Below are positions 2,886 through 9,315 of a DNA stretch of 23,159 nt, piece after piece. The position numbers were made by a program, and so were the translations under genes. Source of the stretch: a virus; the IMG/VR virus record IMGVR_UViG_3300044302_000999, positions 1 through 23,159 of that record; one strand, 5' to 3'. Numbering within the stretch: position 1 is the first letter of the stretch; each line of letters opens with the position of its first letter. Under the pieces are notes generated by a model. The model searched no databases. It saw nothing but the letters and a program-made list of their open reading frames with translations, and was not told where the DNA came from.

Positions 2886-2951
2886 TGATCACAGTATGGC
2901 GGAACCATACATAGATTAAGTCTTTTTATACATTTTATTTTTTTTAAACAA
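2886..2951 (+). promoter_or_regulatory. Leader of the 166-residue gene: hairpin plus T-rich AAACA
   Basis: GTATGG (2894-2899) pairs with CCATAC (2905-2910) around loop CGGAA. A T-rich stretch ending TTTTTTTTAAACAA then runs straight into the ATG at 2952. The same layout and near-identical final bases precede psbA (785-800). No Shine-Dalgarno is present. The shared TATGGCGG-like bases may mark a phage promoter or a conserved 5' leader. Confidence 0.4.
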
Positions 2952-3452
2952 ATGGCTTTTAACACTAATACAGCACAAGGAACTGTTGTTTATACATCAG
3001 GTGAATGGAAAAGTGGAAACGTACTTGCTAATGATCTTGCACTAGTAAGTAATACTACACTTACCGCAATACCTGAGTTATCAATTCCTGTTGCTAAGTA
3101 TGAAAGAGTAGCTTTCCGTTTATGGGTAGATGTAGATAACAAAGCAGCTGGTGACTTCTCATGGTCAGTAACAGTACCTGCTAGTGCTACATCCTTTAGA
3201 GCTAGAAGAGTAACTCCAGAAATTCCTATCTCTGGTGATATTACTGAAAAAGTAACATTTGAAACCACTGGTACTGGTATCGCCGCACAAGATGCTGTTG
3301 GTACTGACAGTGCTTACTACATCCAACTTGAGGGTGTATTCCAGAATGGTGCCAATATTGGTGCTATTGACATTAAAGTTGCACAGAAGACAAGTTCTGG
3401 TACTGCAACAACTGTCAAAGCTGGTTCATATGTTGAATACCAACGCTACTAA
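2952..3452 (+). CDS. Probable virion structural or head decoration protein, 166 aa
   Basis: The product has 166 residues and no signal peptide or membrane segment, and it is rich in Thr, Val, Ala and Ser with regular beta-strand spacing. It opens MAFNTNTAQGTVVYTSGEWK and ends with a strand-rich segment (GAIDIKVAQKTSSGTATTVKAGSYVEY) typical of beta-sandwich phage surface proteins. The gene directly precedes the major capsid gene, has its own leader, and is followed by a hairpin, so it seems to be an independently controlled, probably abundant protein. Head decoration or fibre is the best guess; family not firmly recognised. Confidence 0.65.
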   Translation: MAFNTNTAQGTVVYTSGEWKSGNVLANDLALVSNTTLTAIPELSIPVAKYERVAFRLWVDVDNKAAGDFSWSVTVPASATSFRARRVTPEIPISGDITEKVTFETTGTGIAAQDAVGTDSAYYIQLEGVFQNGANIGAIDIKVAQKTSSGTATTVKAGSYVEYQRY

Positions 3453-3462
3453 AGAGCGTAGG

Positions 3463-3500
3463 AGGAGAGGCACCTCAGAGTCGGACCTCTCTTTCATTGG
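3463..3500 (+). terminator. Hairpin after the 166-residue gene
   Basis: AGGAGAGG (3463-3470) pairs with CCTCTCTT (3486-3493), eight pairs including one G-U, with a 15-nt loop. The T tail is short and interrupted (CTTTCATT). It could end the transcript of the upstream gene or act as a processing site. Confidence 0.5.
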
Positions 3501-3609
3501 CTTTTGGCCCGATACGTCGGATACCCTTTAGCCGTCTAGACGGTGGGATAGACCACAAAAATTTTTCAATCGATTGGAAGTAAGTTGATAATACACACTA
3601 TTCAAATTA
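3501..3609 (+). promoter_or_regulatory. Capsid gene leader with nested palindromes
   Basis: CCGA-TACG-TCGG (3509-3520) is a small hairpin with a UNCG-type loop. CCGTCTAGACGG (3532-3543) is a perfect 12-bp palindrome. It is flanked by CCC (3524-3526) and GGG (3545-3547), which could lengthen the stem. The remainder to the ATG is AT-rich. A GATAAT at 3587-3592 resembles a -10 box, but the -35 region is poor. A late promoter or an mRNA-stabilising leader for the capsid gene would fit; not proven. Confidence 0.35.
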
Positions 3610-4620
3610 ATGGCTAATTTAACCCAATCCGTAGTCGGTACCTTAAATAAAGCTGCAGCATCTACTTCAGCTGCTAACGCTTATGATACCAAATATGGAA
3701 CCTACCTTAAACTGTTCTCAGGTGAGCTGTTCAAAGCTTATGAGTCAGCCACGGTAGCAAAAGGAACTGTACAATCTCGTAGCTTGAAAAACGGCAAGAG
3801 TATGCAGTTCATATTCACAGGTCGTATGCAAGCGGCTTACCATACCCCTGGTACTCCAATACTAGGATCTGGTGATCCTCCAGTAGCAGAGAAGACCATC
3901 GTAATGGATGATTTGCTGATTAGTTCAGCTTTCGTTTATAATTTAGATGAAACTCTTGCTCATTACTCTTTGAGATCAGAGATCTCTGCTAAGATTGGTC
4001 ACGCTCTTGCAGAAGCATATGATAAAAAAATCTTCCGTACAATAGCAAAAGCTGCTCGTGAGTCACATCCAATTACTGCTGCTCCTGGACCAGAACCAGG
4101 TGGTACTCAGATCCAACTTGGAGCTGGTAACCAATATAATGCACAGGCATTGGTTGATGGTTTCTTCGAAGCCGCTGCTGTTCTTGATGAAAAAAATGTT
4201 CCTCAGAATGGACGTACTGCTGTACTAAATCCACGTCAATATTATGCGTTGGTATCTCAAGTAGATACAAATATTCTCAACAGAGATTATGGTAATAGTC
4301 AGGGTAATTTAACTTCTGGCCAAGGTCTATATGAAATCGCTGGTATCCAGATCAAGCGTTCTAACAACCTACCTTTCTTGGCAGGTACTGTTAATTCACA
4401 AGCTGGTGAAAACAACGATTACTCTGCTGACTTCACTAATAGCTGCGGTCTTATCTATCAGAAAGATGTAGCTGGTGTTGTAGAAGCAATTGGCCCACAA
4501 GTCCAAGTTACAAGTGGGGATGTATCAGTTATGTACCAAGGTGATCTAATTGTAGGTCGTCAAGCAATGGGTGCAGGTACTCTAAACCCAGCTGCTGCTA
4601 TTGAATTCCTGAATACATAA
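3610..4620 (+). CDS. Major capsid protein, T7 gp10A-like
   Basis: The 336-residue product is close to T7 gp10A in length (345). It forms the icosahedral head shell with the HK97 fold. The N-terminal arm is MANLTQSVVGTLNKAAAS. Family-typical segments follow: LKLFSGELFKAYESATV, SRSLKNGKSMQFIFTGR, the motif around MDDLLISSAFVYNLDETLAH, the helix AKIGHALAEAYDKKIFR, and LNPRQYYALVSQVDTNILNRD. The C-terminal part carries GLYEIAGIQIKRSNNLP and a final domain with QVQVTSGDVSVMYQGDLIVGR. Position downstream of the scaffold, after the accessory island, and before the tail tube genes agrees. There is no Shine-Dalgarno; the start is set by homology-like length and the preceding leader. Confidence 0.96.
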   Translation: MANLTQSVVGTLNKAAASTSAANAYDTKYGTYLKLFSGELFKAYESATVAKGTVQSRSLKNGKSMQFIFTGRMQAAYHTPGTPILGSGDPPVAEKTIVMDDLLISSAFVYNLDETLAHYSLRSEISAKIGHALAEAYDKKIFRTIAKAARESHPITAAPGPEPGGTQIQLGAGNQYNAQALVDGFFEAAAVLDEKNVPQNGRTAVLNPRQYYALVSQVDTNILNRDYGNSQGNLTSGQGLYEIAGIQIKRSNNLPFLAGTVNSQAGENNDYSADFTNSCGLIYQKDVAGVVEAIGPQVQVTSGDVSVMYQGDLIVGRQAMGAGTLNPAAAIEFLNT

Positions 4621-4633
4621 GGAGGTATAATCT

Positions 4634-5007
4634 ATGCCTATAGTACCAGGAACTTCTCATACAGTTACACAAAATTCTGGTGTAGGTAGTGCTATTTCCG
4701 CAACAAAAGATCCTTCACAAGGTATTGAAGTAGGTAGATCTATTCTAGCTGATGATTATACAACATTAACTGTTGCTCAATCAGCTATAACAGTTTAGTT
4801 ACTTATCATTCCGAAGGTGGTACTTCATTAGTAACATCCGTAGGAACCGTTGCTGACGGAACTGAGTACTATGTTGAAAGAATGTCAGCTGATACTTTTG
4901 AATTAGCAACTTCTGCAGCCAATGCGACTGCAGGAACTACATTACAAATCACCAATGATGGTAATGATAGTCAGACATTTAGAAGACCAATTGGAAAAGT
5001 AGTTTAA
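4634..5007 (+). pseudogene. Small structural-type gene split by a -1 frameshift
   Basis: ATG at 4634 follows a strong AAGGAGG site (4619-4624) right after the capsid stop. The first frame gives 54 residues (MPIVPGTSHTVTQ to TVAQSAITV) and stops at TAG 4796-4798. A second frame, shifted by -1 and open from 4756, continues VTYHSEGGTSLVTSVGTVAD to the end RRPIGKVV at TAA 5005-5007. This second half has a GTxYYV..ADTFELA pattern common in repeated domains of marine phage structural proteins, and it lacks a good start of its own. Joined with one extra base, the two give a 124-residue protein. One lost T in the TTT run near 4794-4796 would explain it. A sequencing error, a real mutation, or programmed recoding are all possible; T7 also makes a -1 product at its capsid gene, but no clear slippery heptamer is seen here. 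Confidence 0.65.
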
Positions 5008-5026
5008 AATACAAAAGTAAAAACAC

Positions 5027-5194
5027 ATGGCAGTTTCCGTAGCAAAAGGTAATGCTGGTGTATGTACTACAGATGCTGTTCGTAGTTCTGTCTGCCGTTC
5101 GGAAGGCGGAGCTACTGGCATACGTCCCTCACCTGTTACCTCAACAACAAAAAATCTCCGCATAGCTTATCCAGCTGTGGAGTGTAATATTTAA
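5027..5194 (+). CDS. 55-residue hypothetical protein with three cysteines
   Basis: ATG at 5027 starts 19 nt after the split gene and reads 55 codons. The product begins MAVSVAKGNAGVCTTDAVRS and has Cys at 13, 23 and 53 and several Arg; there is no signal peptide or membrane segment. GC content in the middle is higher than in neighbours, with an imperfect TCTGCC/GGCGGA hairpin inside the coding sequence. It is the last gene before a strong terminator, so it belongs to the capsid transcript and may be a minor head protein. No family recognised. Confidence 0.6.
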   Translation: MAVSVAKGNAGVCTTDAVRSSVCRSEGGATGIRPSPVTSTTKNLRIAYPAVECNI

Positions 5195-5201
5195 TTATAA
5201 T

Positions 5202-5231
5202 AAGGGAGGTTATTCTATCTCCCTTTTTCTT
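5202..5231 (+). terminator. Rho-independent terminator closing the capsid transcript
   Basis: AAGGGAG (5202-5208) pairs with CTCCCTT (5219-5225) around a 10-nt loop, followed by TTTTTCTT. It sits between the capsid gene cluster and the tail genes. In T7 the main late terminator likewise follows the capsid gene, so this would let capsid protein be made in excess over tail proteins. Confidence 0.85.
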
Positions 5232-5250
5232 AACCTTTCATTATTGAATT

Positions 5251-5889
5251 ATGACATTAAAAATCGATACCGAACTATCCGCAGTTAATTCAATATTGGG
5301 AGTGATCGGTCAAGCACCAGTTACAGCGATTAATGCTTCAAACCCTCAAACAGCTTTAATCAAACAAATATTAGATGAATGCATTTTAGAAGTATTAACA
5401 GAAGGTTGGCATTTCAATGTTGAAGAGCACTATGAATTAGTACCAAATGTTAATGATGAAATACTTATATCTGAAGACATGTTACGTGTTGATATTAATG
5501 ACGATAACATATATAGATCTGAAGATATAGTAAGAAGAAATGGGAAACTTTATGATAAAGTTGATCATACTTATACTTTTACAGAAAACATTGATGCTGA
5601 TATAACTTGGTTCTTCCCATTCTACCCTGACCCTACCTCTCAAGTTACTGTAACTGATTATATACCACCAATATTTAGGCGTTATATTATACATAAAGCA
5701 GCTACTAGAGCTGTAGCACAGATGGTATCTAATCCTCAATTATATCAGATACAGCAACAACAAGAGGCATCAGCTAGGGCTGCCTGTATGGAATATGAAT
5801 GTAATCAAGGAGATCACTCATTCTTTGGTACTCCACATAATAATTCATATAGACCATATCAACCATATCATGCATTATTGGTACGCTAA
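5251..5889 (+). CDS. Tail tubular protein A, T7 gp11-like
   Basis: The 212-residue product is close to T7 gp11 (196). It forms the gatekeeper ring between portal and nozzle. Typical features are the N-terminal LSAVNSILGVIGQAPVTAI helix-turn, the segment ILDECILEVLTEGWHFNVEE, and the C-terminal FRRYIIHKAATRAVAQMVSN helix. This matches the conserved order in gp11 proteins. The stop overlaps the next start by one base (TAATG), so the two tail-tube genes are translationally coupled. No Shine-Dalgarno; it begins just downstream of the terminator, so an unrecognised promoter or read-through must supply it. Confidence 0.93.
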   Translation: MTLKIDTELSAVNSILGVIGQAPVTAINASNPQTALIKQILDECILEVLTEGWHFNVEEHYELVPNVNDEILISEDMLRVDINDDNIYRSEDIVRRNGKLYDKVDHTYTFTENIDADITWFFPFYPDPTSQVTVTDYIPPIFRRYIIHKAATRAVAQMVSNPQLYQIQQQQEASARAACMEYECNQGDHSFFGTPHNNSYRPYQPYHALLVR

Positions 5890-8879
5890 TGGGATCTATA
5901 ACACAAACAGTACCTTATTATATCCAAGGTATATCTGAACAGCCAGATCAAATTAAAAAGAAAGGCCAAGTAAGAGATGCATTAAATGTATTACCAGATA
6001 TTACGCAAGGTTTATTAAAGCGTCCTGGTAGTCAATATTTAAATGAATTAAAAGCTAAAAATTTCAGTGCTGCTGATATTACATTAAATACTGAAGCTGC
6101 TTGGTTTTCTATAGATCAAACAGATAAGTTTATTGGAAGAGTACATACGGATGGTAGTTTTGCTGTATGGAGTGCTCAAAATGGTAATGCTCAAAATGTT
6201 TCATATACAGCTAATAATACAAATGGTAGTGGATGTGGATGTTCTGCAAAATATTTAGCACATTCTGACCCAGAATCTATACAATTTTTAACTATTAACG
6301 ATGCTACATTTGTAGTTAATAGAGAAAAAACAGTCAGAATGCTACCTGTAGATGACTGTAGGTATTATGATAATGCCATGTTTAAGGGTTATACTAATCC
6401 AAACTGGGGTAGATTTCATGAAGCCTTTATAGATTTAAAACATATAAAACGTAATCAACAATATCCTTTAGATCTTGTAAGCTCTCAAGCTGGTTTAGCA
6501 CCTTCAACAGGTACTAGCTATACAAGAGCTACTAAACTTGAAGCTACATGGATATCAGGACCTGGTGGATCTCCAAATAATATGGAGATTAGAAATGTAG
6601 GAAGTACAAAATATACATTTAGAAAAACATTTGATATTAACCCATCACCAACTCCTACAGGTGGATCTATACTAGCAGGAACTACAGCAGCTCAAAGGAA
6701 TTTAAGATTTGAGTTAACCATGACAGGTATGCCTTATTCAGAAGGTACTGATTATCACTCAGTTTACAGATTAGAGTGGGATCTAATGCATGGTGGATAC
6801 GGCTGGCAAGTAGGTGATCATTTTGAAGTTAGTATGGGAGATACAGGTTCTGTTGGTTATTATAAAATAACAATTAAAGAAACAGAAACTATTAACCATA
6901 AGCATACTATAGGAATAGGCCCTGTAAGACCTATGCCTACTAGCGCTGTTGCTGGCAGTACAGTATCTGCTGATTCTATTTTAGATCAATTAAAAATAGA
7001 AATAGAACAAAAAACTAATAATTATTTTAGTGTTACTAAAATAGGTACAGGTTTATATTTAAAATTAGCTAGTTTACCACCTACTGGTAGTACTTGTAGA
7101 TCAGGCGATCAGTTCAATGTACTTACATCTGAACCTCAAGTTATGAATATACTAACTCATGAAGTCAGCGATGTCAGTGAGTTACCTAATGTTTGTAAAG
7201 ATGGTTATTTAGTTAAAGTTGTTAATAGTACAGAAGATGATGATGATCACTGGTTGAAATTTGTATCTGATACTCCTGGTCAAGATGGTAGTGGGCATTG
7301 GGAAGAAACATGGGACCCTTGTGTGGAAATTGATTTCGATCCATGTACCATGCCTCATAAAATTGTGAGGTTATCTAATAATGTTTTTGATTTACAAACT
7401 ATACCATGGGAAGCTAGAAAAGTAGGTGATGAGAATACTAATCCAAAACCTAGTTTTGTTGATAAAACAATTAATAATTTATTATTCTATAGAAATAGGC
7501 TGACATTTTTAAGTGAAGAAAATGTTATACTTTCACAAGCAGGTGATTACTATAATTTCTGGGTTGAATCAGCAACTGCTGTAGCTCCAATAGATGTAAT
7601 AGATATTGCTGCTAGTTCTGATAGACCTACTATATTATATGATGGTTGTGAAATCAATGAAGGTTTGGCCATATTCTCTCCTTACGAACAATTTTTAGTT
7701 ACAACTGAAGAAACAGCTTTCACGTCAACATCTGCATCAGTTAGATTTATATCATCTTATGATTATAATATAGGTATTAAACCGTTTGTTATTGGAAGTA
7801 GTGTTGGATTCACAAGTAATAGTGGATCACACAGTAGATTCTGGCAAATGGGGAATATATCTAGAACTAGACAAGCTACTACAATTGAACAAAGTAAATC
7901 CGTAGCTAATTCGTTACCTTCTAATTTATTAACAGCTGCACCGTCTAGAGATAATAATATCATATTATTCCATGGTTGGGATCCTGTACCTGGTACAAGT
8001 TATGGTGCATGTAAAAACCCTTATTCAGATATATGGGGGTATCGTTATTTTTCTGATGGTGAACAATTAATTCAAAGTGCTTGGTTTAGATGGGATTTCT
8101 ATGGTGATGTTATATGGCATACTATCATGGATAATACTTATTATGTTGTTGTCTATTTTAATAGTAAAGCTCATTTTCTAGCTGTAGATTTAGAACAACA
8201 ATCAGCTACATTTAATTTAGATGATCAAAATACTTGTAATAAACATTTGATTCATTTAGATAATGCTAGTACTGCAACTATAGTAAGTTATAATGCCACT
8301 ACAAATAAAACTACAATTACCTTACCTGCAAATCATTATAGGCAACCTGCTACACATGGTCAAGCTAGTGGGGGATCCCAGATTTTATATGGACTAACTG
8401 GTGCAATGAAAGGTCAAGTCGGTTTAATCGATGCTTTCACTGCTAATACTGTTACACAAGCTACTGTAGAAGGTAATTGGGTTGGTAGTACAGCAGTTAT
8501 AGGATTTACTTATGATATGTCTGTTGAATTTCCCTCTGTTTATGTAACAAAACCTGCTGGAGATAAAGAAATAGCAGATTTAACTGCTAGTCTTAATATA
8601 CATAGAGTTAGATTTACTTTTGGACCAACTGGATATCACTCTACAGTTTTATCTAGAAAAGGAGTTGCTGATTATACAGAAAATCATCCATCTTCAATGA
8701 CTCATACTTTCAAATTAAATCAGTATAATGTATTATTAGATACTGAATCTGCAGTACCTGTATATGCTGATAGTAATGATTATAGATTGAAATTATTAGC
8801 TACTCACCCTACCCCTTGTACTTTATATTCACAGACATGGGAAGGTAATTATAATCCTAATTATTATCAACGTGCTTAA
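5889..8879 (+). CDS. Tail tubular protein B (nozzle), T7 gp12-like
   Basis: The 996-residue product forms the tail nozzle through which DNA leaves and to which fibres attach. The N-terminus is characteristic: QTVPYYIQGISEQPDQIKKK, then DALNVLPDITQGLLKRPGSQ, found near the start of gp12 proteins. The middle has IPWEARKVGDENTNPKPSFV followed by LLFYRNRLTFLSEENVILSQ, another hallmark. A propeller-like strand-rich region follows with SGSHSRFWQMGNISR. It is longer than T7 gp12 (794), with the extra length mostly before the hallmark middle segment (roughly residues 200-480). The start shares a base with the tail tube A stop. Confidence 0.94.
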   Translation: MGSITQTVPYYIQGISEQPDQIKKKGQVRDALNVLPDITQGLLKRPGSQYLNELKAKNFSAADITLNTEAAWFSIDQTDKFIGRVHTDGSFAVWSAQNGNAQNVSYTANNTNGSGCGCSAKYLAHSDPESIQFLTINDATFVVNREKTVRMLPVDDCRYYDNAMFKGYTNPNWGRFHEAFIDLKHIKRNQQYPLDLVSSQAGLAPSTGTSYTRATKLEATWISGPGGSPNNMEIRNVGSTKYTFRKTFDINPSPTPTGGSILAGTTAAQRNLRFELTMTGMPYSEGTDYHSVYRLEWDLMHGGYGWQVGDHFEVSMGDTGSVGYYKITIKETETINHKHTIGIGPVRPMPTSAVAGSTVSADSILDQLKIEIEQKTNNYFSVTKIGTGLYLKLASLPPTGSTCRSGDQFNVLTSEPQVMNILTHEVSDVSELPNVCKDGYLVKVVNSTEDDDDHWLKFVSDTPGQDGSGHWEETWDPCVEIDFDPCTMPHKIVRLSNNVFDLQTIPWEARKVGDENTNPKPSFVDKTINNLLFYRNRLTFLSEENVILSQAGDYYNFWVESATAVAPIDVIDIAASSDRPTILYDGCEINEGLAIFSPYEQFLVTTEETAFTSTSASVRFISSYDYNIGIKPFVIGSSVGFTSNSGSHSRFWQMGNISRTRQATTIEQSKSVANSLPSNLLTAAPSRDNNIILFHGWDPVPGTSYGACKNPYSDIWGYRYFSDGEQLIQSAWFRWDFYGDVIWHTIMDNTYYVVVYFNSKAHFLAVDLEQQSATFNLDDQNTCNKHLIHLDNASTATIVSYNATTNKTTITLPANHYRQPATHGQASGGSQILYGLTGAMKGQVGLIDAFTANTVTQATVEGNWVGSTAVIGFTYDMSVEFPSVYVTKPAGDKEIADLTASLNIHRVRFTFGPTGYHSTVLSRKGVADYTENHPSSMTHTFKLNQYNVLLDTESAVPVYADSNDYRLKLLATHPTPCTLYSQTWEGNYNPNYYQRA

Positions 8880-9315
8880 GTATACTATTCATCCATTAAC
8901 TAAAGAAGCTGCTTTTGAAGTGGCTTCTAATTTACGTGAAGAAGATCACAGAGAACTTACAGAAGGGCATGGGATTGATCCTGTGCCTTTTTTAACTAAA
9001 GATGTTCATACAGGTGATCAAATTTATTTTATTGCACCAAACGGCAAGACTGCCGGAATTGCAGGTGTATATAAAACAGGAAATATTTGGATGGTAACAA
9101 CTCCAATTATTTACGATAGCCCTATTTCTTTTATACGAGAAGCTAAAAGATTTATTGATTCTAGAAAAGAACCTATTCTTTGGAATATAATCGATAAAAG
9201 AAATACAATACATTTAAGACTTATCAAATTTTTAGGTTTTAAATTTATCCGAGAGATCAAATATGGTCCTCACAATTTGTCCTTTATAGAGTTTTGCCGT
9301 GTGCGCAGGTATTAG
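8872..9315 (+). CDS. GNAT-fold protein at the gp13 position
   Basis: GTG at 8872 overlaps the end of tail tube B by 8 nt and gives 147 residues (MLKYTIHPLTKEAAF...). The layout is that of an N-acetyltransferase fold: strand-helix start, central strands QIYFIAPNGKTAGIAGVYK, a helix with REAKRFIDSRKEP, and the C-terminal N-x-x-x-H-x-R-L-I-K-F-L-G-F-K-F pattern. T7-like phages have a small protein of this size here (gp13 position), needed for proper assembly of the internal core. Whether it acetylates anything is unknown; the acetyl-CoA loop is not obvious, so a structural use of the fold is as likely. It overlaps the next gene by 17 nt. Confidence 0.75.
   Translation: MLKYTIHPLTKEAAFEVASNLREEDHRELTEGHGIDPVPFLTKDVHTGDQIYFIAPNGKTAGIAGVYKTGNIWMVTTPIIYDSPISFIREAKRFIDSRKEPILWNIIDKRNTIHLRLIKFLGFKFIREIKYGPHNLSFIEFCRVRRY

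Follow-up and report, generated by a model that had tools for sequence, protein, structure and literature searches.

What does it mean when a phage gene, lying immediately behind the major capsid gene, is split between two reading frames? The question arises from a linear, metagenomic IMG/VR virus contig of 23,159 bases (the window, by which is meant here the whole stretch of DNA analysed). The original prediction took the two frames to be one broken gene and offered ways in which they might be rejoined, a T lost from a run of three or a short ribosome hop between two GTT codons; it also mentioned the -1 frameshift at the T7 capsid gene. Comparison with relatives supports the idea of one broken gene and points to a different cause, a deletion of 52 bases, which we take to underlie the split in this sequence with a probability of about 0.87.

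A gene in two frames behind the capsid gene

By its gene order (psbA, small genes, capsid, tail tube A, tail tube B, internal virion proteins, fibre) and by its capsid gene, which finds its best DNA match in cyanophage NATL1A-7, the window is a T7-like cyanopodovirus. The stretch from the capsid stop codon to the next recognised gene, a small gene of the family PHROG_23669, is called here the slot, and it was read in all fetched loci. The features of the slot in the window and of its surroundings are collected in Table 1. Ahead of the capsid gene (2952-3452) lies a gene of 166 amino acids with a marginal family match (phrog_24062, E=0.017); at the same place NATL1A-7 has a gene of unknown function, of 184 amino acids, and a tRNA-Gly. 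A tRNA search of the window found none.

Table 1. Features of the capsid gene and the slot behind it, in window coordinates
Feature	Position	Strand	Evidence
Major capsid protein gene, 336 aa	3610..4620	+	phrog_267/27239 E=5e-80/2e-54; 76% DNA identity to NATL1A-7
Ribosome site AGGAGGT of the slot gene	4620..4626	+	sequence; identical in L002
ORF A, 54 aa: N-terminal segment of the slot gene and new junction TAG	4634..4798	+	N-terminal profile E=9.7e-31
Deletion junction; 52 bases of L002 (2308-2359) absent between these positions	4793..4794	+	alignment to L002
C-terminal fibre-type domain remnant, -1 frame, without usable start	4795..5007	+	
PHROG_23669 gene, 55 aa, which follows the slot in relatives	5027..5194	+	E=3.3e-19
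Terminator-like hairpin and T run, closing the capsid-slot-PHROG_23669 group	5202..5225	+	same place in L095, L035, L110, L096

Much of what had been read from the letters alone stands. The first frame begins with an ATG behind a good ribosome site and ends, after 54 codons, in GTT TAG (stop codon 4796-4798). The -1 frame is open from 4756, after a TGA at 4753-4755, to a TAA ending at 5007, and it indeed has no good start, its first ATG coming only at 4882. The YYV..ADTFELA stretch within it, described as a fibre-type domain, matches PHROG tail/fibre profiles (phrog_32294, E=4.6e-05, and phrog_38233, E=2.3e-04). In relatives a single continuous protein corresponds to both halves, which puts the split beyond chance.

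The gene behind the capsid gene was found in 16 orthologous contigs, in every case in a single frame. It is complete in 15 of them (135-142 amino acids) and cut by the contig end in the other. A search of bacterial genomes for the slot protein found none, and tblastn with the two window halves joined (X at the junction) found nothing among cultured phages. The intact protein of the nearest relative, compared with cultured phages, gave only tail/fibre-type matches, all below 60% identity. Pfam gave no match for that protein or for the window halves, and for a few relatives only weak matches (best E=0.012). The AlphaFold model of the long form has a pLDDT of 42, too low for use, and a search of solved structures yielded no significant match, the best being an antibody chain (E=0.043); a faint match to structures of the ubiquitin-activating enzyme E1 domain (E=0.72) is likewise not significant.

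A probable deletion of 52 bases

Scans of IMG/VR with either half of the gene reached the same contig, IMGVR_UViG_3300030107_001532 (locus L002), in which the N-terminal half is 100% and the C-terminal half 99% identical and both lie within one intact gene of 141 codons (2148-2573). The two sequences are about 99.5% identical over the block, and their alignment shows that the window lacks exactly 52 bases of L002, the gap falling after window position 4793. The rest of the slot gene differs by two substitutions, one silent and one T/I, and at the latter site the window has the residue of another long-form locus, L003. Over window positions 2952-8003 the gap is the sole coding indel between the two. 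Since 52 is 17 x 3 + 1 (17 codons and one base), the frame shifts and a TAG arises at the junction. The 52-base block is found also in the other relatives, and its presence in all of them suggests that it was the window that lost the bases rather than L002 that gained them. The deletion sits near the boundary between the N-terminal segment and the C-terminal fibre-type domain.

The comparison disposes of the single-base explanation. The gene had been said to be one base short of a whole number of codons, and modulo 3 this is correct; the actual shortfall against L002 is 52 bases, of which one is the remainder. Adding one base would restore the frame, as a sequencing error that lost one T would predict, but the nearest relative differs by 52 bases, and the chance that such an error accounts for the split is negligible.

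The recoding explanations fare no better. GTT does occur at 4793 and again at 4798, the stop codon directly follows the first, and the second is in the downstream frame, as a hop would have it. The first GTT, however, is created by the deletion junction itself, and the pair is a chance-level coincidence: the last codon is repeated at the same spacing at 16 of 1450 ORF ends (1.1%), and 171 of the same 1450 (11.8%) offer some landing in the -1 frame within 25 nt. That there is no standard slippery heptamer had been noted already, and no X XXY YYZ occurs in 4741-4830; slippage and hopping are both rejected on these grounds. A capsid fusion of the T7 10B type is ruled out by an in-frame TAA at 4628-4630, directly upstream of the ATG at 4634, which removes the ground for the T7 analogy. 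The absent block encodes EASPGVLTSTAHGLATGD, which includes the invariant positions A55, P57, G58, V59, T61, S62, H65, L67, and D71 and has a mean conservation of 0.84, against 0.74 for the whole protein (15th among 124 stretches of equal length). Because these residues are among the better conserved and are missing, recoding could not rebuild the protein: a hop or shift would still leave out 17-18 conserved residues. Moreover, the two-frame arrangement is found in 0 of the 16 relatives. Taken together, a programmed -1 frameshift or ribosome hop that joins the frames is vanishingly improbable.

Could the gap instead be an artefact of amplification or assembly, the population being intact and the contig built on a wrong join or a chimeric read? 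A search of viral_contigs for the junction found no second copy; the allele is thus known from a single contig, and a junction seen once calls for caution about the allele's reality. The contig is metagenomic, and at about 2940 and 9300 there is a sharp change in its identity to L002, as a chimera could cause. On the other side, the ends of the deletion have no repeat or k-mer in common that an assembler might have joined, which argues against a simple wrong join; over 5 kb the window shows no further coding indel when compared with L002, and its remaining large genes are open. An artefact appears unlikely on balance.

The block that bears these sharp edges is worth describing in its own right. 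Window 2945-9300 is about 99-100% identical to the same contig (here locus L120) over roughly 6.35 kb, which cover the 166-aa gene, the capsid gene, the slot, tail tubes A and B, and an internal virion protein, while the flanks are only about 65-90% identical. The block may be either a recently exchanged head-tail cassette or the mark of a chimeric contig.

As to how the bases might have been lost, the deletion ends have only an imperfect AGA in common, with no repeats and no strong hairpin. Neither a hairpin-driven nor a repeat-driven deletion finds support (DNA fold z-scores -0.6 to -1.0). The window keeps an undecayed remnant of about 209 bases, and the natural short forms described below have no domain remnant behind them at all. 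An undecayed remnant implies a deletion that is recent or artefactual; apparently it is recent.

The slot across cyanopodoviruses

The contents of the slot are of four kinds: (i) a short gene, made up of nothing but the N-terminal segment (48-64 codons); (ii) a long gene of 135-142 codons with a single domain of the HGL/ADTF type, or of 233-241 codons with two; (iii) a gene of 109-128 codons with another beta-type module (GGDGYRVGD); and (iv) no gene. The alignment of homologous loci answers the possibility that two separate genes are the rule here: they are not seen consistently, relatives having one long gene or the short N-terminal gene only. Of the surveyed loci, 12 have no gene in the slot, including those of Syn5, P-SSP7, and S-CBP3 (P-SSP7 and Syn5 have no annotated gene there). 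A search with one short form brought up no further kind of content.

When a profile is built solely from residues 1-50 of one-domain long forms, it picks up the natural short forms (48-64 aa) at E values from 8e-12 to 2e-4; for kind (iii) genes the values run from 2e-5 to above 1. By this measure the N-terminal part is common to short and long forms, and kind (iii) genes likely have it as well. The C-terminal parts differ; the GGDGYRVGD-type module, like the HGL/ADTF module, matches the profile of a large baseplate wedge protein (phrog_32294), and relatives of the C-terminal domain occur in fibre, tail, and baseplate proteins.

Where does the window stand among these kinds? Like the long forms, its gene is flanked by the capsid gene and the PHROG_23669 gene and has the N-terminal segment (PGTS...GVG...S.T..P...E.GR). 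It has no in-frame C-terminal HGL.TGD...ADTF domain, the first 17-18 residues of the domain being deleted and the rest out of frame. At 54 amino acids, with the N-terminal segment alone, it has the makeup of a short form, reached through a deletion and with a remnant left behind.

Several single loci add to the variety. Behind one capsid gene, L051 (2094-2970) carries two slot genes in tandem, a short one of 48 aa and a two-domain one of 241 aa. Genes of the GGDGYRVGD type (109-128 aa) occupy the slot in L055, L057, L061, L062, L065, L066, L075, L076, L078, L079, L083, L086, and L088-L091. S-CBP3 has an apparent, unannotated PHROG_23669-type gene between its capsid and tail tube A genes (L096, 3535-3720).

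The history of the slot was followed on a tree of 61 capsid proteins, in which the window groups with the long-form loci L002 and L003 (SH-aLRT 100). The slot's content changes 22 times if all labels are counted and 19 times if the long kinds are merged and the window is left out; the tree is a quick one with 18 open forks, and the exact count is soft. Such numbers imply that the content has often been gained, lost, or switched.

In the window, as in four other loci, a terminator-like hairpin precedes the tail tube A gene by a short distance. The three genes ahead of it (capsid, slot, and PHROG_23669) may accordingly form one group, perhaps a strongly expressed one, and a strongly expressed capsid group would fit a role of the slot gene in the virion. 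A literature search found no paper describing this slot; one may still exist.

The 54-residue piece and its known counterparts

If the deletion is real, the shifted frame and the new TAG would convert a long form into a 54-residue look-alike of the short form. With a strong ribosome site in front, the N-terminal piece alone would presumably be made, the rest of the gene being an untranslated remnant, and the piece might be equivalent to a short form, since it has the same segment and falls in the same range of lengths. Perhaps the N-terminal segment attaches to the capsid or to some other part of the virion, and the C-terminal domain, given the company its relatives keep, points outward. The deleted allele would then act as a short-form, capsid-associated anchor without an outward domain rather than as a plain null, a reading that is possible at somewhat less than even odds. 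It is also quite conceivable, if short of probable, that a real deletion destroyed the gene, leaving a piece that is unstable or useless and a phage that lives without the protein. The loci with an empty slot show that the gene is dispensable in such phages; against a plain null, what is left agrees with natural short forms both in length and in sequence, and the strong ribosome site has been kept. Generalised to cyanopodoviruses, the slot would house a companion of the capsid, with a constant N-terminal anchor and exchangeable outward domains or none, and deletions at the boundary would be one route from long to short. This broader picture is offered tentatively, and we think it rather doubtful in its entirety.

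As a case of recoding the locus has no weight: the deletion is an ordinary one, and the accessory gene it struck is variable. Its interest is that the little-annotated and highly variable post-capsid genes of marine cyanopodoviruses come together as a single family, constant in the N-terminal part and varied in the C-terminal domains, whose repeated gain, loss, and switching are seen on the capsid tree. It also makes available a pair of alleles, intact and deleted, in an otherwise about 99.5% identical block. Should the protein prove to sit on the capsid, abundant marine phages would have here a way of changing their outer surface, and one open to test.

Known systems resemble the locus to different degrees. 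T7 produces gp10B from its capsid gene, gp10A, by a -1 frameshift, so that extra protein is encoded behind the capsid gene and before a terminator. The window too encodes an extra protein behind the capsid gene and ahead of a terminator, but as a separate gene with its own ribosome site, and the in-frame stop excludes a fusion. The bypass of T4 gene 60 likewise has a stop flanked by matching codons; here, however, the pair is at the level of chance, and the gene of the relatives is unbroken and contains the missing residues. Capsid decoration proteins such as T5 pb10 and the Ig-like protein of N4 are encoded by accessory genes adjoining the capsid gene, and their layout would fit a short constant part with exchangeable outer modules, but they have no sequence link to the slot protein. 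The capsids of P-SSP7 and P-SCSP1u have no decoration protein, and Syn5 has knob-like proteins (PMC10575957); in P-SSP7 the slot gene is absent.

The closest counterparts are the short genes of NATL1A-7 (CYIG_00004, 55 aa) and S-CBP4 (SVPG_00024, 53-63 aa), which lie at the same place and have the same N-terminal segment (E values 9.5e-12 and about 3e-08). The latter is annotated in one record as "minor capsid protein 10B." The two GenBank records of S-CBP4, a phage sequenced by 454, differ by one base near this gene (L109, 1501-1692, and L110, 1501-1662), which alters its annotated end to give 63 or 53 amino acids. Neither short gene has a C-terminal domain or a remnant of one, whereas the window, with a piece of nearly the same length, keeps a remnant of 209 bases in another frame.
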